Shown here: piece by piece, positions 36,216 to 45,353 of the stretch
Position numbering within the stretch: position 1 is the first letter of the stretch
How the letters are laid out: the number at the start of each line of letters is the position of its first letter
Assembly: GCA_037893225.1 (NCBI GenBank)
Contig: JAZGUH010000141.1
Location: forward strand, 310,001-374,000
Direction: 5' to 3'
Source of the DNA: Hippasteria phrygiana
Taxonomy: Eukaryota > Echinodermata > Asteroidea > Valvatida > Goniasteridae
DNA length: 64,000 nucleotides
Program-made: the position numbers and the translations under genes
The notes under the pieces: generated by a model
Databases searched by the model: none
What the model saw: the letters and a program-made list of their open reading frames with translations, nothing else
What the model was told of the DNA's origin: nothing

Positions 36216-36344
36216 TTATTACAAATTATGACGAATTACCTTTAAATTTGTTAATTTTTAATTTTGGTTGGTAGAATCCACTTCACAAGCACCACCACTT
36301 CACTAGTGGTACCTCCTTTACTTTTTTAAAACATTTTTTCAGTA

Positions 36345-37465
36345 ACGACCTTATTGTAATTTACTAACTTATGCATCGCTCCCACATGTTTATTTAACAA
36401 GTATAATCACTGGAGACATTGTACGTGTGTATTTCAAACAAACGAACTCTTCATTATCATAAACTTTGGAAGTCAGACACTTGTAGTTCGTGAATATCAT
36501 GGTTATTTGATTAGGACATAGTAAATGATTTTCTGCATACTCAGTTTACTTTATTTTAGTTAAAATTCATATATTGTAATAATCTTACTGTTAATGGACT
36601 TCCATTAAGCAGCCATTATAATTATCTGTTTGACGTGAACTACATGTTGTAATTGTCAACTGCTGTTGCCATGTGCGGGAATAGGCTACTGCCTGCCCTG
36701 ACTGTTACAGGTAACGTTTGACACAATTTTGAACGGATTTTAATTATATAATTTCACATTTTATTTGCCAAATTGCAGCTTAGAGGCCTTTCTTATTTTG
36801 ACCGCAAATATTTATAGATCCATTCAGTGATAATTTTAAGAATGATAAGGAAGTGTAAAAGGTGAATTTTGGACTCTAAAAATGGAGCGTCCTGTAGAGA
36901 AATAAGGTCAGAGAGAAACGTGCATTTATGTCGATTACAGAGTATGACCATGACTTGTGCTAAACGATACTGCATGGAGGAATATGGGATTTCTAAGTCT
37001 ACAAACACTATAATTTATGTATGCGTTTCTGTTTAGTGGGCCTATAATTCGTGATCTCAACCATAAAGTGTATGAAGTTTTGTAGATTGGGCGATTGTGT
37101 AATAAATTCGTAATCAAGGGCGGACTTATGTTTGGGTTGGGTGTGCTGCATTCGTCGGCGTGCGCTAAAGGTCGCCTACTAGTTTGAGGTTTTTTCTGCC
37201 TTTGAGTATTTGTGCCCAATCGCCCTTTTATATCCTAATGCCATATATTATTTCAATTTGATAACTTTATGTTACAATATAAACTAAAGTACCTGTATAA
37301 CTGTTTATATACGACTGCCTGCCCTGACTGTTACAGGTTCGTCACTGAATAAACAACTTGAGAGCCAGAATTGTTTCAGTCAACCAATCTGTCCTGAACC
37401 TGTGTGCCAGAGTCCCCCCTTCCCGAGTTCAACCCAGAGGCCATGCTCCCTCCCCCCTCCTCACA
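36345..37465 (+). repeat. 5' LTR, truncated at its 5' end
   Basis: 1121 bp matching 44062-45182. It starts at ACGACC instead of the TG seen at 44005, so the first 57 bp of U3 are absent and no target duplication is found. A TATA-like TTTTATATCC lies near 37225 and an AATAAA near 37347, marking probable promoter and polyadenylation regions. It ends in CACA. A 25-bp word starting ACTGCCTGCCCTGACTG occurs twice (36688-36712 and 37314-37338). Confidence 0.85.
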
Positions 37466-37466
37466 A

Positions 37467-37482
37467 GCGTAGTCGGCAGGAT
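37467..37482 (+). other. Primer binding site for tRNA-Ser
   Basis: GCGTAGTCGGCAGGAT begins one base after the LTR. It is complementary to the 3' acceptor and T-arm end of the common animal tRNA-Ser (..ATCCTGCCGACTACG-C), as I recall that sequence. The two outermost bases expected to pair with the terminal CA of CCA do not match (AA precedes where TG is expected). Drosophila 17.6 and 297 are also reported to use tRNA-Ser. Confidence 0.75.
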
Positions 37483-37690
37483 GGATGGAGTTGAGTCAAC
37501 AATGAGCACCAGACAAGACTGAGGTCTAGCCCAGATCCCAAGATTAAATATCGTCGTAGATCATGTATCCTTATTTTTGGTGTAATAACATTTTGTGATC
37601 TGATTGTGTTATTGTTTTCTGCTCTAAGTAACAATCATACGGCCAATGTGAGTGTTCATAATACGTTTATAAAGTGATTTTACAAGTCAA

Positions 37691-38215
37691 GTGTTAATAG
37701 TTCTTTGTGTATTGCCAACTGCAGAAATTTACACGAGTATATCTAAGCGTTCTTTATCATTTGACTATTAAAATTGTTGGTGATTACATTTTATCCTCAA
37801 AGATATTTGCCATATTTTAGAGTGGAAGACCAGCCAGCTGAAATTTGTGTGGAATATATTTGCCCTCCTTAAGTTTTAAATCTTTGAGTTAAGATAAAAG
37901 ATTAAGACAAAGTTGACATTTTGGCAGTTGTTGTTCGACTATAGAGGTAAAATTAAAGTTGTACTTCATAAGTGTTAATATTGCCGAACAGCCGAAGCTT
38001 ACATGTGCTAAATATATATACCCAAGTGCTCTTTTTCATTTGACCTTTTTCATTAAAACCTGGTTATCTTTAAAGGTGCTTGTCATATTTTAGAGAGGAA
38101 GGCCAGTCAGGTTTGCTATAGTGTGCCGACATTTTTGTGTAAGACTAATTTTGCATCGCTTAAAGGTGTTCAATCTGCTCGTTAAGATAAAATGTATGAC
38201 TAAAGAGGTACATTT
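37691..38215 (+). repeat. Diverged tandem duplication in the leader
   Basis: Two units of about 280 bp: GTGTTAATA at 37691 and 37972, CATATTTTAGAG at 37811 and 38084, GTTAAGATAAAA at 37888 and 38181. Spacing varies from 273 to 293, so indels have accumulated. It lies between the primer site and gag in the untranslated leader. Confidence 0.7.
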
Positions 38216-38299
38216 AATTGTTTTGTTATAAGGGACTGTTGAGTTATAAAGTAAGCACAAGTAAATATATAAGTGCATACAGTGACATACAAGTTCATA

Positions 38300-39619
38300 A
38301 TGGTAAAATACGTCAAGGTAAAGGGCAGAGATGTCGTACACCAGTTCCCCTTGAAGGCTGATGATGGGCCGCTAGCATTGGAAGTCCTTCGAACAGAGCA
38401 CCCGACTGCACATGGATTATTGTTCAGCAGAGAAGATGATAGTCAGGTAGTTGTTCCCGCTCAAGACGGACTCATTGGCCCACCTCTAGATGGATGGGGA
38501 GAGTATGAGTACACGGTATTAACGCCAGCACCTAACCCTACCGCGGCACAACCTACGGTGACAGACAAACTACTAGAGATACTGGCCACACCTCGTACCC
38601 AGCTGGTGATGTCCCCCGAACGAAAAATCACTCCGTTCGATGGCAAGCCTAATGATGTCCAAGATTTTGTAACCTCCATTAAGGATGCATATCAGCGATA
38701 TTCCATACCGGCTGTACAGAGGGGTGCATTCCTCGTTGATTACTTACGTGGGGTGCCCAAGTCAGAGGTCAAGGCTCTACTAGCAGGTGGGCAGACAGTA
38801 GAAGAGGTGCTCACATTCCTCAAGAACTCGTACGGTGAGAAGTTGGCAGTTGGGGAACTTCAACGACTGTTCCTAGAGCGAAAGCAACGCCAGGGCGAAG
38901 GAGTTAGAGACTTTGCTGTAGACTTAGAGAGACGGTTTATGCGGCTCACCAGACGTGATGAGAAGCTCTATTCATCCCCCAACGCAGCACTGACGGAGCA
39001 GTTCATAGAAGGACTGAGTGATACATACATGCGCAATACATGTAGAGACCTATATGAAGGAGGGGCAATGACATCCTTTCAAGACCTGCGAGAGTATGTG
39101 CTTAAACGGGAGGGACAAGAAGATGCCCGGTATAGAGCCGTCGCCAACAACTCGTCGGCCCAACAAGCCGCCATGCAGTTGGGAAACGGAAATACAACCT
39201 CTACAGTGGACCTCCTCCATGCTTTCAAGGAGATGACGGACAGAGTGGTGAAAGCTGTCCAGGATGTTGTTAGGCCACCAAACTACCGCCCACAAGAACC
39301 TTTCCGGTACCAGAATGACAGACCTTCACCAGATGTTGGCGTACCTTATCCGCAGCAGTGTCCGCAACAGTTTCCCAACCCCCCTGATGTTCCACAAAGG
39401 TTCAGCCAGTCAGGATACAGAGGACCGTGCTATGCATGTGGCTTCATGGGTCACTTTGCCAGGAATTGTCCCTACAGAGGTACAACCAACGATAGATATC
39501 GTGGCAGGGGATTCGTACCTGGAACATCAGCACCCAGATATCAGCAACAACGTTCCGAAGAGAGAGCGCAGCAAAGCCGTCAGCCACCCCAGGAGTTAAA
39601 CGGCCAGCCTCTGCTGTAG
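38300..39619 (+). CDS. gag: Gag polyprotein of the Ty3/gypsy element
   Basis: 439 codons from ATG 38300, chosen over an upstream in-frame GTG because it is the first ATG and has A at -3 and G at +4. Gag forms the virus-like particle and packages the RNA. Around residues 100-250 is the helical capsid region (FDGKPNDVQDFVTSIKDAY, with FLERKQRQGEGVRDFAVDLE further on), as in the retrotransposon gag family. A single CCHC zinc knuckle, CYACGFMGHFARNC, lies near residues 377-390 with a basic RG-rich tail, the nucleocapsid. The stop TAG at 39617 lies 15 nt after the slippery heptamer. No internal stop or frameshift is present, so the gene appears intact. Confidence 0.93.
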   Translation: MVKYVKVKGRDVVHQFPLKADDGPLALEVLRTEHPTAHGLLFSREDDSQVVVPAQDGLIGPPLDGWGEYEYTVLTPAPNPTAAQPTVTDKLLEILATPRTQLVMSPERKITPFDGKPNDVQDFVTSIKDAYQRYSIPAVQRGAFLVDYLRGVPKSEVKALLAGGQTVEEVLTFLKNSYGEKLAVGELQRLFLERKQRQGEGVRDFAVDLERRFMRLTRRDEKLYSSPNAALTEQFIEGLSDTYMRNTCRDLYEGGAMTSFQDLREYVLKREGQEDARYRAVANNSSAQQAAMQLGNGNTTSTVDLLHAFKEMTDRVVKAVQDVVRPPNYRPQEPFRYQNDRPSPDVGVPYPQQCPQQFPNPPDVPQRFSQSGYRGPCYACGFMGHFARNCPYRGTTNDRYRGRGFVPGTSAPRYQQQRSEERAQQSRQPPQELNGQPLL

Positions 39620-39654
39620 TGAGCCATACAGCGGGGGTTGGTACAGTTGGCTCA
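39595..39654 (+). promoter_or_regulatory. -1 ribosomal frameshift signal with H-type pseudoknot
   Basis: The slippery heptamer GTTAAAC (39595-39601) is split G TTA AAC in gag phase, and slipping back one base gives GTT AAA in pol phase. After a 6-nt spacer, stem 1 pairs 39608-39618 with 39627-39637 (11 bp, two of them G-U). The loop bases TGAGCCA (39620-39626) pair perfectly with TGGCTCA (39648-39654) as stem 2. Loop 1 is one base and the last loop ten bases. The layout is that of known coronavirus/arterivirus-type -1 signals; GUUAAAC is the arterivirus heptamer. The gag stop codon lies inside stem 1. Confidence 0.85.
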
Positions 39655-42600
39655 ACCACCAAAGTAGACCAGAAGTTTTTGGCAAAAACAGTCGGTGAAT
39701 GTTACTCTGTAACTGTAATGTTCTCTGGTGTGACGGTCCCATGTCTACTAGACCCAGGTTCTCAAGTGACGACAGTTGGGGAAAAGTATTTTCACCACTA
39801 TCTCGCTCCCAGCGGCTTTGAACTTAAGCCAATCCCTGAACTATTCACTCTTGTCTCGGCAAATGGTGCCAAGATGCCTTACATTGGGTACTTTGAGACG
39901 GACATCCACGCCATTGGACAGACTATCAATTCTAGAGTGGTGTTGGTTCTTCGAGAGGAATTCCAAGCCCCACTGGCGAAAGGAGGTGTACAGGGTATTC
40001 TTGGCATGAATGTACTCCAGCAATGTTGGGAAGATCTAATGAGCACAAGCCACAGGTCACATCTGAAGAAGATTCCTTGGCCAACCCAAGACCCTATCTG
40101 GCAGAGAGCATTAAATGCAGTGGGGGAGACTTTGCAGTTTGGTGGCAACACTGGGAGAGTCGGACAAGCATACTTGGGAGGACAAGCAGTTGTTTTATCA
40201 GCCCGCCAAGCGGTCGTGGTACATGCAAGAGGAAGCAAAGGCCCTGGAGAAGGAGTATATGAAGCTTTTCTGGAGCCAGCTGTGTGTGGGGGAACCCCTG
40301 CAGGAGTCGCCGTTCCCCCATGTCTTGTCAAGGTGGAGTCAGGCAGCTTCAAGGTCACGATGTATAACGAGACCAATGCTGACATCGTTGTCCCAAAGTC
40401 CGCTGAGCTTGGCACCCTCTACGTGGGATCATTATTTAGCGGAGACAGTACCGACCAAAGCGAGACCGGGCAATCGCTGACAGCAGCCATGAACACAATC
40501 ACAACAAGTGGAGAGACAGGCCAACCGGAAACCCCTGTACCAGTAGACATAGGTGTTCAGGTTACTCCGGGAGAAACGGCAAAGGTAGTTGACCTGCTGA
40601 AGAAACACCAGGATGTTTTCTCACGACATGCTCAAGACTTGGGGTATACAGAGACCATCGTTCATCGCATTGATACGGGGGACAACCATCCGATTCGTCA
40701 GCGTCATCGCCCACTTCCACCCTCTCAGTACAGAGCTGTGCGAGAACACATCAGTAGTTTACTGAAGGAGGGCGTCATACAAGAAAGTGCAAGTCCCTGG
40801 GCTTCACCGGTAGTGGTTGTCCAAAAGAAGGATGGCAGTGTACGCCTATGTATAGATTACCGCCAGCTGAACAAGCTGACACATCGAGATTCGTTCCCTC
40901 TCCCTCGAATAGAGGAGTCTCTACAAGCCCTTGGAGGTGCGAAGTATTTTAGCGTGTTGGATCTTACGAGTGGATACTATCAAGTAGCAGTACACCCGGA
41001 TGATGTGCAAAAAACGGCCTTCAGTGTGCCCTTTGGGTTGTTTGAATATACCCGACTGCCCTTTGGCCTTTCGAATGCACCTGCAACATTCCAACGCCTA
41101 ATGCAGAGATGCCTGGGTGACCAGTGTTTTGATAATGTGCTAATCTACCTCGATGACATAATTGTGTACTCCCCAGATCTGGATACCCACTTGGTCCATC
41201 TTGACAGAGTGTTCAACAGGCTTCGCACCCATGGTCTAAAGCTAAAGCCAGAGAAATGCCATCTTCTGCAGCCAGAGGTTCAGTACCTTGGTCACCGGGT
41301 GTCCAACATTGGGGTGGCAGTGGATCCGGAAAAGGTCAAGGTGGTGCAAGAATGGCCAGAGCCTACATGCGTCAGAGATGTTCGAGCTTTCCTTGGGTTC
41401 ACAGGCTTCTTCCGACGTTTCATACAGGGTTATGCCAGTATCGCTGGTCCATTGTTCCAGTATCTGAAGGGCAATCAGAAGAAGCAGAAGGGTACCCGAC
41501 CTGCGAACACCCCCATTGTCCTGGACGAGGCAGGAAAGACAGCCTTTCACACGCTTATTGGTCACCTTACCTCTGCACCCATTCTCTCCTATGCTGACTT
41601 CTCTAGGCCATTCCGGCTTGAAACTGATGCTAGTGCAACAGGGCTTGGAGCCGTTCTGTTTCAGGAAGATGATAAGGGAAGACGCCATGTCATCGCTTAT
41701 GCTTCACGGACACTGCATCCGACAGAGAGAAGTGGGCGCTACAGTGCTTTTAAGTTGGAATTGTTGGCAGTCAAGTGGGCTGTAACAGAAGTCTTCAAGG
41801 ACTATCTCCTTGGAAACAAGTGTCATGTCGTAACTGATCACCATCCACTGCTTTTCGTAGATAAGGCAAATCTGAGATGCATTGAGATGAAGTGGATGCA
41901 GCAACTTAGCTCGTACGACTACGAACTAAGCTACAGGCCAGGAAGAAGTAACCAGGCCCCAGATGCCTTGTCTCGACGGAACGCAGGTGTCAATGCAGTC
42001 AAACCAGAGGATGCCTCCCCTCCTCCAGCTGTAGTGGCAACGTCCTCCGAGGTTGGGGCTTGTCTCGATGGCCACTCGCCTGGAATTGAACTTCCAGTTG
42101 CCTTTGTCCATTGCATTAAAGCTTGTCAGGTTGGGGGCATCCGTTGCCTTCCGGGTTACACGGCAGAACAGTTGGAGAAGTTACAACAAGAAGACCCTAC
42201 CATAGCACAGGTCGTGTGTTATGTGCGACGGGGAGAGAAGCCAGGCAAGATGGAACGAGATAAGCTTGATAGAAAGGTCCTGGCCATGCTTCGAGACTGG
42301 AAGCGTCTTTTCATCAAAGACGGATTGCTCTGTCGGAAGGCTGTTTCCCCAAATGACCAGCAGCATATTTTCCAGTTAGTGACTCCAGGGACCATACAAG
42401 AGGAGGTTGTGAGGAGATTCCACGATGATGCGGGTCACTTCGGCCCCAAACGTACCTGGCGTCTCATATGGAAGCAATTCTACTGGCGCAACATGGAAGA
42501 ATGTGTCAAGGAATGGTGTAGCAGGTGCCAGCGCTGTGCCGTTAGCAAACCTCCTGTGCACCAGACTAGACCACCATTTTCTGCCCTGTCGGCTTCTGCA

Positions 42601-43755
42601 CCCATGGAGACCATTGCTATGGACTTTACGGTTCTAGAGGGATCTAAGGATGGCTTCGAGAATGTCTTAATTGTCACCGACGTATTCACCAAATATGCAT
42701 GGGCAATTCCTACAAAGGATCAGAAAGCGGTTACTGTCGCAAGGTGTCTGGTTAAACATGTGTTTCTACCTTATGGTTGCCCCCTTCGCCTACATTCAGA
42801 CTGTGGTCGTAACTTTGAGTCACGACTAGTCCAGGAGCTCTGCGACATGTACGGAGTCCAAAAAAGCAAGACTACCCCATACCACCCAGCGGGAAACGGG
42901 CAATGCGAAAGGTTCAATCGGACATTACACAACATGCTAGCAGCCCTCCCTGACCAGAAGAAGCGACGATGGACGGAGTACTTACCTGGATTGGTGTTCG
43001 CATATAACAACACTCAACATTCGACGACAGGGGTCGACCCCTTTTTCTTGATGTTCGGAAGAAACGGCCGCTTCCCACAGAGTTTGGATTTAGGCGGGGA
43101 AGCCCCAAGGGGGAAGGCCGGCCACCCACAGTCATATGCCGTCCGGCATCAGAAGGCGCTCAAGGTGGCAAGGAGTGTGGCTATCAAGAATTCACAGCTG
43201 GCCGCTACAGCCCGTCAAGCACTTCGAGCACGTTGTGTGTTTGAGAAACCCTTAGGGGTCGGTCAGTATGTCCTTATTAGGCGGCATGCACGTCAAGGCC
43301 GATGTAAACTCCAGGACCATTGGGAGGTGGAACCTTATATGGTGATTAAACAACCATATGATGGCCAGCCTGTGTATGTGGTTCGCAACCGGTCGGGAAG
43401 TGAGAAGGTAGTCCACCGCTCACATATTAAACATTGCCCGTGGCTACCCGAGGGGCAACTGGAGGAGTCTCCTTCAGACGTATCGAGTGACGACTCACAA
43501 AGCTCATCCTCTCCAAGGGCCTATGTCCTCCGACCATGTGTCCAGCCTTTCAATGCAGCAATTCTTGATGGACCTGAGCTGACCATGAAAGCTCATACTA
43601 AGTCAGACGAACCCAAGTTAGAGGTTTTAGAGGAAGAGGATGTTGTGCCAGACCGTATTCCGAGGCCAGACCAGAACAGGGAAGATGGGTCTTCGTCTCC
43701 GAGGTATCCGGTTCGGTCCACTCGCGGCAAGCAGCCGTGCCGTTTTACCTCGTAA
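39601..43755 (+). CDS. pol: Pol polyprotein: PR-RT-RNaseH-IN
   Basis: Frame open from 39496, translated after a -1 shift at 39595. Residue numbers here count from the GTG codon at 39619. Retropepsin: active-site motif reads LLDPGSQVTTV with Asp45, where family members have D-T/S-G. Reverse transcriptase: about 385-570, catalytic YLDDIIVYS at 510. RNase H: from about 660, ETDAS with Asp670. Integrase: HHCC zinc finger His935, His940, Cys967, Cys970; catalytic Asp1002, Asp1061, Glu1097 with exact D-35-E spacing. A GPY/F-like module near 1205-1275 follows. No chromodomain is seen. The tail is serine-rich and ends in a basic RSTRGK stretch. No stop or shift interrupts 1378 codons. Confidence 0.95.
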   Translation, partial: RPASAVVSHTAGVGTVGSTTKVDQKFLAKTVGECYSVTVMFSGVTVPCLLDPGSQVTTVGEKYFHHYLAPSGFELKPIPELFTLVSANGAKMPYIGYFETDIHAIGQTINSRVVLVLREEFQAPLAKGGVQGILGMNVLQQCWEDLMSTSHRSHLKKIPWPTQDPIWQRALNAVGETLQFGGNTGRVGQAYLGGQAVVLSARQAVVVHARGSKGPGEGVYEAFLEPAVCGGTPAGVAVPPCLVKVESGSFKVTMYNETNADIVVPKSAELGTLYVGSLFSGDSTDQSETGQSLTAAMNTITTSGETGQPETPVPVDIGVQVTPGETAKVVDLLKKHQDVFSRHAQDLGYTETIVHRIDTGDNHPIRQRHRPLPPSQYRAVREHISSLLKEGVIQESASPWASPVVVVQKKDGSVRLCIDYRQLNKLTHRDSFPLPRIEESLQALGGAKYFSVLDLTSGYYQVAVHPDDVQKTAFSVPFGLFEYTRLPFGLSNAPATFQRLMQRCLGDQCFDNVLIYLDDIIVYSPDLDTHLVHLDRVFNRLRTHGLKLKPEKCHLLQPEVQYLGHRVSNIGVAVDPEKVKVVQEWPEPTCVRDVRAFLGFTGFFRRFIQGYASIAGPLFQYLKGNQKKQKGTRPANTPIVLDEAGKTAFHTLIGHLTSAPILSYADFSRPFRLETDASATGLGAVLFQEDDKGRRHVIAYASRTLHPTERSGRYSAFKLELLAVKWAVTEVFKDYLLGNKCHVVTDHHPLLFVDKANLRCIEMKWMQQLSSYDYELSYRPGRSNQAPDALSRRNAGVNAVKPEDASPPPAVVATSSEVGACLDGHSPGIELPVAFVHCIKACQVGGIRCLPGYTAEQLEKLQQEDPTIAQVVCYVRRGEKPGKMERDKLDRKVLAMLRDWKRLFIKDGLLCRKAVSPNDQQHIFQLVTPGTIQEEVVRRFHDDAGHFGPKRTWRLIWKQFYWRNMEECVKEWCSRCQRCAVSKPPVHQTRPPFSALSASAPMETIAMDFTVLEGSKDGFENVLIVTDVFTKYAWAIPTKDQKAVTVARCLVKHVFLPYGCPLRLHSDCGRNFESRLVQELCDMYGVQKSKTTPYHPAGNGQCERFNRTLHNMLAALPDQKKRRWTEYLPGLVFAYNNTQHSTTGVDPFFLMFGRNGRFPQSLDLGGEAPRGKAGHPQSYAVRHQKALKVARSVAIKNSQLAATARQALRARCVFEKPLGVGQYVLIRRHARQGRCKLQDHWEVEPYMVIKQPYDGQPVYVVRNRSGSEKVVHRSHIKHCPWLPEGQLEESPSDVSSDDSQSSSSPRAYVLRPCVQPFNAAILDGPELTMKAHTKSDEPKLEVLEEEDVVPDRIPRPDQNREDGSSSPRYPVRSTRGKQPCRFTS

Positions 43756-43990
43756 CCCTGTTGTTACTTCAAGTAATTGTTGTGTTTAACCTGTTTGAGT
43801 TTGTAGTTTAGCCTTGCTCAAGTTGTTGTGAATGCTGTGCATTCCCCTCCAAAAAATATAGCGCTCTCAGGTTTATTGGTCAGGGTATTCTCTGTAATGT
43901 CAGTCAAGCATGCAGGTTCTGTTCGAGTCAATCTTTTCCAGTCATCAGTATCTTGTATGTATTCCCGAGTCTTCGAGGACGATGACTCCT

Positions 43991-44003
43991 AGGCGGGGAA
44001 GAG
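43991..44003 (+). other. Polypurine tract
   Basis: AGGCGGGGAAGAG, purine-rich except for one C, lies one base before TGTAGAGG, the inferred 3' LTR start. It primes plus-strand DNA in this element class. Its position is the main argument that the LTR begins at 44005 and not at 44062, where the upstream sequence is AT-rich. Confidence 0.75.
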
Positions 44004-44004
44004 T

Positions 44005-45182
44005 TGTAGAGGATGTCTAATTCCCCCATTGTTTAATCATTAATTTATTGTATTTAAGTAGACGACCTTATTGTAATTTACTAACTTATGCATCGCTCCC
44101 ACATGTTTATTTAACAAGTATAATCACTGGAGACATTGTACGTGTGTATTTCAAACAAACGAACTCTTCATTATCATAAACTTTGGAAGTCAGACACTTG
44201 TAGTTCGTGAATATCATGGTTATTTGATTAGGACATAGTAAATGATTTTCTGCATACTCAGTTTACTTTATTTTAGTTAAAATTCATATATTGTAATAAT
44301 CTTACTGTTAATGGACTTCCATTAAGCAGCCATTATAATTATCTGTTTGACGTGAACTACATGTTGTAATTGTCAACTGCTGTTGCCATGTGCGGGAATA
44401 GGCTACTGCCTGCCCTGACTGTTACAGGTAACGTTTGACACAATTTTGAACGGATTTTAATTATATAATTTCACATTTTATTTGCCAAATTGCAGCTTAG
44501 AGGCCTTTCTTATTTTGACCGCAAATATTTATAGATCCATTCAGTGATAATTTTAAGAATGATAAGGAAGTGTAAAAGGTGAATTTTGGACTCTAAAAAT
44601 GGAGCGTCCTGTAGAGAAATAAGGTCAGAGAGAAACGTGCATTTATGTCGATTACAGAGTATGACCATGACTTGTGCTAAACGATACTGCATGGAGGAAT
44701 ATGGGATTTCTAAGTCTACAAACACTATAATTTATGTATGCGTTTCTGTTTAGTGGGCCTATAATTCGTGATCTCAACCATAAAGTGTATGAAGTTTTGT
44801 AGATTGGGCGATTGTGTAATAAATTCGTAATCAAGGGCGGACTTATGTTTGGGTTGGGTGTGCTGCATTCGTCGGCGTGCGCTAAAGGTCGCCTACTAGT
44901 TTGAGGTTTTTTCTGCCTTTGAGTATTTGTGCCCAATCGCCCTTTTATATCCTAATGCCATATATTATTTCAATTTGATAACTTTATGTTACAATATAAA
45001 CTAAAGTACCTGTATAACTGTTTATATACGACTGCCTGCCCTGACTGTTACAGGTTCGTCACTGAATAAACAACTTGAGAGCCAGAATTGTTTCAGTCAA
45101 CCAATCTGTCCTGAACCTGTGTGCCAGAGTCCCCCCTTCCCGAGTTCAACCCAGAGGCCATGCTCCCTCCCCCCTCCTCACA
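44005..45182 (+). repeat. 3' LTR, complete (1178 bp)
   Basis: Starts TGTAGAGGA and ends TCCTCACA. These ends are imperfect inverted repeats, as expected of TG..CA LTR termini. Positions 44062-45182 repeat the 5' LTR with no visible change. The first 57 bp have no counterpart at the 5' end. It ends 172 bp from a gene A exon (45354). Confidence 0.85.
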
Positions 45183-45353
45183 CTAAAATAATGAAATGGT
45201 GTATGTCATGTCAATGTCAAATACATCAAAATCAAGTACATCAATATCAAGTACATCAGTATCAAATGTCATCATTACAGTGCCCACACTTGTTCAAAAA
45301 TATAGCTTATTCTCATTGGGGTCTTCTAAGAGGAACATTATTTCACGTCTTAC

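Follow-up and report, generated by a model that had tools for sequence, protein, structure and literature searches.

A putative -1 frameshift pseudoknot at the gag-pol junction of a starfish Ty3/gypsy element and its relatives

In a 2003 survey of animal LTR retroelements, pol lies in the -1 frame in 28 of 51 elements, many of them with classical slippery heptamers, according to the accessible portion of PMC5009743, which also describes -1 shifts stimulated by a pseudoknot in PEG10 and PNMA3, genes derived from Ty3/gypsy elements, and a GUU first triplet in equine arteritis virus (EAV). The device is thus known and its presence in a Ty3/gypsy element expected, and not the oddity that a first-pass annotation of the DNA studied here had implied. 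What is added is covariation across a clade; for the surveyed elements, the same portion of PMC5009743 does not describe a covariation-supported pseudoknot across a metavirus clade. Among the known systems, PEG10 (Edr; Rfam RF01090) shares with the junction reported here a Ty3/gypsy origin, an H-type pseudoknot at the gag-protease junction and the heptamer GGGAAAC, found in two of the families discussed below (E and K), and in the Rfam consensus the distance from slip codon to gag stop is seven codons, as it is here, the stop being a UAG with CUG before it. PEG10 differs in its spacer, which is 5 nt rather than 6 in the part of PMC2800197 available, in its bulged stem 1 and in the sequences of its stems. 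PNMA3 (Ma3) likewise combines a classical heptamer with a classical H-type pseudoknot in the accessible text of PMC5009743, and the modelled Gag of the element described here best matches a PNMA2 capsid, although PNMA3 is a domesticated gene without pol domains and the likeness is one of described layout. Similar dimensions are seen in the arteriviruses, EAV having GUUAAAC, a spacer of 5 and stems of 10 and 7, and LDV a spacer of 6 and stems of 11 and 8, in the available sections of PMC3835772. Arterivirus loops are longer, however (L2 of 58 nt in EAV, 17 in LDV), the genes are unrelated, and there is no sign of descent.

The window, a 64,000-nucleotide stretch of the genome of the starfish Hippasteria phrygiana (contig JAZGUH010000141.1), holds an element in which LTR-like repeats flank gag and pol; by Pfam, gag has a CCHC knuckle and the domains of pol run RT, RNase H, integrase (Table 1). 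This is the arrangement expected of Ty3/gypsy elements (Metaviridae), and the RT of the element clusters with other Gypsy-type proteins. LTRs usually end in TG...CA, whereas the repeat here starts ACGACC and finishes CTCACA, and no target site duplication was found at the element (window 36335-45192), the flanks CAGTA and CTAAA being different. With LTR ends that are atypical, the family assignment rests on the proteins. The complete identity of the two LTRs indicates a recent insertion.

Table 1. Features of the element and of its predicted frameshift signal (window coordinates)
Feature	Position	Strand	Remarks
5' LTR, 1121 bp	36345..37465	+	1121/1121 positions identical to 44062-45182
gag	38300..39619	+	ATG aligned with starts of relatives; stop UAG 39617-39619; stop-to-stop frame 38273-39619; CCHC
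pol open frame, stop to stop	39496..43755	+	-1 relative to gag; RT, RNase H, integrase domains
Slippery heptamer G UUA AAC	39595..39601	+	read G TTA AAC in gag frame; relatives have UUUAAAC, GGGAAAC, GGAAAAC
Spacer GGCCAG, 6 nt	39602..39607	+	6 nt in 21/23 close places
Stem 1, 5' arm	39608..39618	+	11 pairs with 39627-39637
Loop 1, 1 nt	39619..39619	+	final base of gag stop UAG
Stem 2, 5' arm	39620..39626	+	7/7 Watson-Crick with 39648-39654
Stem 1, 3' arm	39627..39637	+	11 pairs with 39608-39618
Loop, 10 nt, stem 1 to stem 2 3' arm	39638..39647	+	
Stem 2, 3' arm	39648..39654	+	7/7 Watson-Crick with 39620-39626
3' LTR, 1121 bp	44062..45182	+	1121/1121 positions identical to 36345-37465

The segment 39595-39654 can, with high confidence, be regarded as the programmed -1 ribosomal frameshift signal of this recently moved element, as judged from its sequence and that of its relatives. 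The slip site, spacer, stems and loops proposed by the first-pass annotation were all recovered where it had placed them, as was the overlap of gag with a pol frame open from 39496, and its central proposal of a strong H-type recoding signal, needed to reach pol in an invertebrate Ty3/gypsy element, appears sound. The heptamer is of the X XXY YYZ type, G UUA AAC being a known variant of that class (EAV), and its phase joins the two frames. Complementarity between the loop of stem 1 and downstream sequence would give an H-type fold, with stem 2 fully paired in the window element (family A) and predicted to keep an unbroken run of at least five pairs in each of the ten families (in one family including a G-U); a downstream structure is thus found after a 6-nt spacer, with covariation in ten families. 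Two G-U pairs occur among the 11 pairs of stem 1 (39610-39635 and 39612-39633). Only in part is the gag stop buried in stem 1, as had been suggested, since two bases of the UAG pair within the stem and the third forms loop 1; a second gag-frame stop, UGA at 39620-39622, lies inside stem 2. On the established mechanism, most ribosomes would end Gag at the UAG, and a minority, delayed by the pseudoknot, would slip back one base on the heptamer and continue into pol, Gag-Pol thereby being made as a set fraction of Gag. What the sequences themselves show is the frame layout, the heptamer in phase, the complementarity of the arms and, in relatives, paired changes and the exchange of classical heptamers; it is from the mechanism that we infer knot formation, ribosome pausing, tandem slippage and the product ratio.

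The signal stands out from its surroundings. When the slippery heptamers on both strands of the window were ranked by summed stacking, without loop terms, GTTAAAC at 39595 came first of 1271, its sum of -37.8 lying well below the -22.8 of the runner-up. If the spacer is kept at 6, four of 127,800 start positions score equally, and all four (39599-39602) represent the same knot in neighbouring registers. None of 200 dinucleotide shuffles reached the knot score. The fixed layout is passed by 897 of 127,880 window positions and by one of 58 heptamers, that one being the signal at 39595.

A DNA search of the 944 Mb assembly with 39496-39760 as query returned 23 places, eight at 93-100% identity and 15 at 72-76%. 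At each of them the heptamer is GTTAAAC or GGGAAAC, and the arms of stem 1 and the stem 2 arm TGAGCCA are present. Both gag and pol remain open in some copies of families A, B, C and E, and in these the gag stop follows the slip codon at a distance of 7 gag codons and pol is open for 1376-1396 codons. Copies that keep gag and pol intact but lose pairing had been named in advance as what would speak against the knot, and the open copies mostly argue in its favour, with the reservation that those of families B and E each carry a single mismatch in stem 1 and that of family C has 5 of 7 stem 2 pairs. Where the signal is damaged, pol is broken, as in L013 and L019, where stem 2 is mispaired (L019 also has a spacer of 8) and pol is open for just 19 and 9 codons, respectively, in L021, with a spacer of 13 and 36 open codons, and in L006, with one extra stem 1 mismatch and 222. 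Broken frames are not peculiar to damaged knots, however, because L005, L007 and L008 have an unchanged knot and a broken pol (223, 95 and 515 codons); the comparison agrees with the knot but does not prove it.

The genome contains many related families, of which ten (A, B, C, E, F, G, H, I, J and K) were hand-picked as representatives among rows already above the pairing threshold; they have the layout 6-11-1-7-11-10-7 in common. Standard pairs occupy 91% of their cells, a figure helped by that prior threshold, compared with 33-43% when one arm is slid. The compensatory changes that had been proposed as a check in related elements were found, with two-sided changes at 7 of 18 pairs (five in stem 1, two in stem 2) and at 0-3 in the slid versions. 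In shuffles of the ten families, which ignore their relatedness, neither the percentage paired nor the 15 two-sided cells were reached in any of 5000, and the 7 two-sided pairs were reached in 11 of 5000; extra pair types are no more numerous than in the shuffles, of which 1478 of 5000 reach the observed number. Families A, B, C, F, G and H have GTTAAAC as their heptamer, I has TTTAAAC, E and K have GGGAAAC, and J has GGAAAAC, so that one classical heptamer is exchanged for another with phase and spacing kept; L079, L084 and L085 have GGTAAAC, which is not a classical heptamer. Relative to the slip codon, the gag stop lies 7 codons away in A-I and 20-31 codons away in L078, L080, L082, L083 and L086; in J and K it comes immediately behind the two slip codons. 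The predicted knot is kept while the position of the gag stop shifts among families.

Synonymous positions around the junction also show unusual conservation. Among sites with the same amino acid, the fraction keeping the same codon is 0.67 in the first 20 codons of pol (18 columns, four families), some of which double as the end of Gag, against 0.42 elsewhere in the first 330 columns (permutation p 0.0027), and it is highest, at 0.78, in codons 7-19, which lie mostly beyond the gag stop. Gag tails are highly variable, but all seven sequences that extend to the C-terminus finish Leu-Asn-x-x-Pro-x-x (P0003 has an additional Ser, and P0007 is cut short). This tail is the footprint of the predicted slip site, spacer and stem 1.

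Stimulation of the slip by stem 1 alone, as a long hairpin, with the stem 2 match a by-product of the encoded Ser-His and Gly-Ser, is the alternative that best survives these observations, and it is quite improbable. Folded without pseudoknots, the region forms a single hairpin in which stem 1 is extended to 16 bp, at -29.8 kcal/mol (z -3.2), and energy alone gives no preference for the knot over this hairpin. Stem 2 is also the less well supported helix across the ten families, being paired in 87% of cells compared with 94% for stem 1, with two-sided changes at two pairs of one cell each, and the open family C retains just 5 of its pairs. Against the hairpin, a stem 2 A-U becomes G-C in family G, both sides changing together, the outer stem 2 pair is flipped in family K, the stem 2 arms of more distant families are very different and still complementary, and extension of stem 1 past 11 bp uses loop bases that vary between families.

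Production of pol by other means, namely read-through, splicing or a fresh start inside pol, is very improbable. A Met codon at 39718, 33 nt upstream of the protease motif, could serve for a fresh start, but neither this nor splicing would explain the conserved heptamer class, the spacing and the paired stems. Stop read-through is rejected because it gives the wrong frame; a ribosome reading through the UAG would remain in the gag frame and meet the UGA immediately.

The 171 residues downstream of 39619, used as a protein query, gave at least 151 matches (150 of 556 candidates were scored), down to about 29-37% identity, and the same knot layout is found in families whose proteins are 42-69% identical after the junction. 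Among 51 further genome places (L053 and L057-L106), 33 have the fixed layout, ten a knot of other proportions, and eight none that could be demonstrated. A fixed-layout pass means at least 8 of 11 stem 1 and 4 of 7 stem 2 pairs, and because L097 and L098 pass with stem 2 at just 4 of 7, stem 2 is unproven in these two. The pseudoknot scorer, which tolerates no mismatch within a stem, found nothing in L030, L078 and L082, where stem 1 is interrupted, or in L097, where the piece stops inside the knot. H-type knots of other proportions occur in L090, L091, L092, L093, L101, L103, L096, L105, L099 and L104, L105 having a changed heptamer and the junction segments of L099 and L104 being identical to that of L092. 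No knot could be demonstrated in L075, L081, L085, L087, L088, L100, L102 and L106, which have indels, cut-off pieces or changed heptamers. In L090-L096, L101 and L103, a UAG or UAA stands straight after the slip codons, stem 1 is shorter and the inner loops are larger; from their predicted folds, these places are a second build of the same device. Compared with L084, L085 has an extra G after the knot, with gag and pol in one open frame (the pol frame is open 831 nt upstream).

For both Gag and Pol, the best named relatives come from another starfish, Patiria miniata. Two Patiria records have their first 329 residues in common, after which one finishes in the gag frame and the second, which is a gene model, continues in the pol frame. 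Merged, the two records, which may be different copies, fit just 6 nucleotide strings, in each of which GTTAAAC is followed by CGCAAT and then by CCTCCGCTGT. As far as two protein records tell, this relative would keep GTTAAAC and the beginning of stem 1. An RT tree of 123 rows places families A, B, C, E, G and H in one group with P0009, P0010 (Patiria) and P0011 (100/99); next to join are six rows that include another Patiria protein (95/88), and then ten rows that include fish proteins (92/89). The latter include P0033 and P0039, single proteins that combine PNMA, zinc-knuckle and RT domains, a layout that seems to need no frameshift, so that recoding would have been gained or lost nearby. 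A search of a viral contig collection gave two pattern matches, neither of which was confirmed.

With the same layout in family after family and knots of other proportions farther out, the signal was very likely inherited within one metavirus clade rather than recently acquired, as a reading of the aligned junctions. Acquisition from, or recent convergence on, a coronavirus or arterivirus type of signal, which the first-pass annotation had raised with its phrase "possibly convergent or acquired", is scarcely credible, and nidovirus acquisition is rejected despite the EAV- and LDV-like dimensions (PMC3835772, available sections), because the layout recurs at the same place throughout the clade and, per two protein records, in starfish, knots are also found in more distant families, and the four Rfam matches with E up to 5 at 39500-39720 do not include the coronavirus frameshift element.

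A more far-reaching proposal is that the clade keeps an ancestral gag-pol knot that was the source of the PNMA3/PNMA5 and perhaps the PEG10 signals, one deuterostome metavirus pseudoknot having been captured with gag, and not several inventions. This is a tentative idea and on balance unlikely. In its favour are the PNMA-like capsid, a slip-to-stop distance equal to that of the PEG10 model, and a sub-threshold match to RF01090 that spans the full model and starts exactly at 39595 (14.9 bits, E 2.7, below the cut-off of 45 bits). Family E scores higher (20.6 bits, E 0.12), still below the gathering cut-off of 45, and the GGGAAAC heptamer itself contributes part of the score. At E up to 10, RF01090 matches L022 (family E) and none of L001, L009 and L016; family K and eight distant loci yield no match. 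Against the proposal are E values no better than 0.12-2.7, the unmatched family K, and the neighbouring fish elements with gag and pol in one frame. In the accessible text of a 2024 study (PMC11011659), the PEG10 ancestor almost certainly had a frameshift, but the element chosen as its proxy has none. In titles and abstract openings of the open-licence literature, no description of the knot in this clade was found. Its spread through the families shows that a metavirus clade with a PNMA-like Gag can keep a recoding signal of the pseudoknot type as a lasting trait, and where the PNMA3 and PEG10 signals came from thereby becomes a question that sequences can test. The junctions also offer a clean natural data set for -1 frameshifting, with one layout in ten families, heptamer exchange, stems that both show paired changes, and decayed copies as a contrast.

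Two regions of Gag resemble known domains. The capsid region (~38660-39050) is PNMA-like, the PNMA2 capsid being the top structural match (E 4.7e-6) to a Gag model of mean pLDDT 66; Pfam PNMA is matched by 5 of 8 Gag relatives, and the window scores 19.8, below the cut-off of 25. The Gag N-terminus (38300-38560) resembles the N-terminal oligomerisation domain of TDP-43, with Pfam TDP-43_N at E 2.1e-6 in the window and present in 7 of 8 Gag relatives (best E 1.5e-11). Comparison with the solved TDP-43 domain gives a profile E of 3.9e-7 and a Foldseek E of 2.8e-5, with an rmsd of 2.2 and a target TM-score of 0.83. No earlier report of a TDP-43-like Gag N-terminus was found in titles or abstract openings of the literature. 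In pol, the protease motif at 39751 reads Asp-Pro-Gly-Ser, where Asp-Thr/Ser-Gly is expected. The DPGS form is also present in families B, C and E and in P0009-P0012, and DTGS is found in P0013-P0015, P0018 and P0020.
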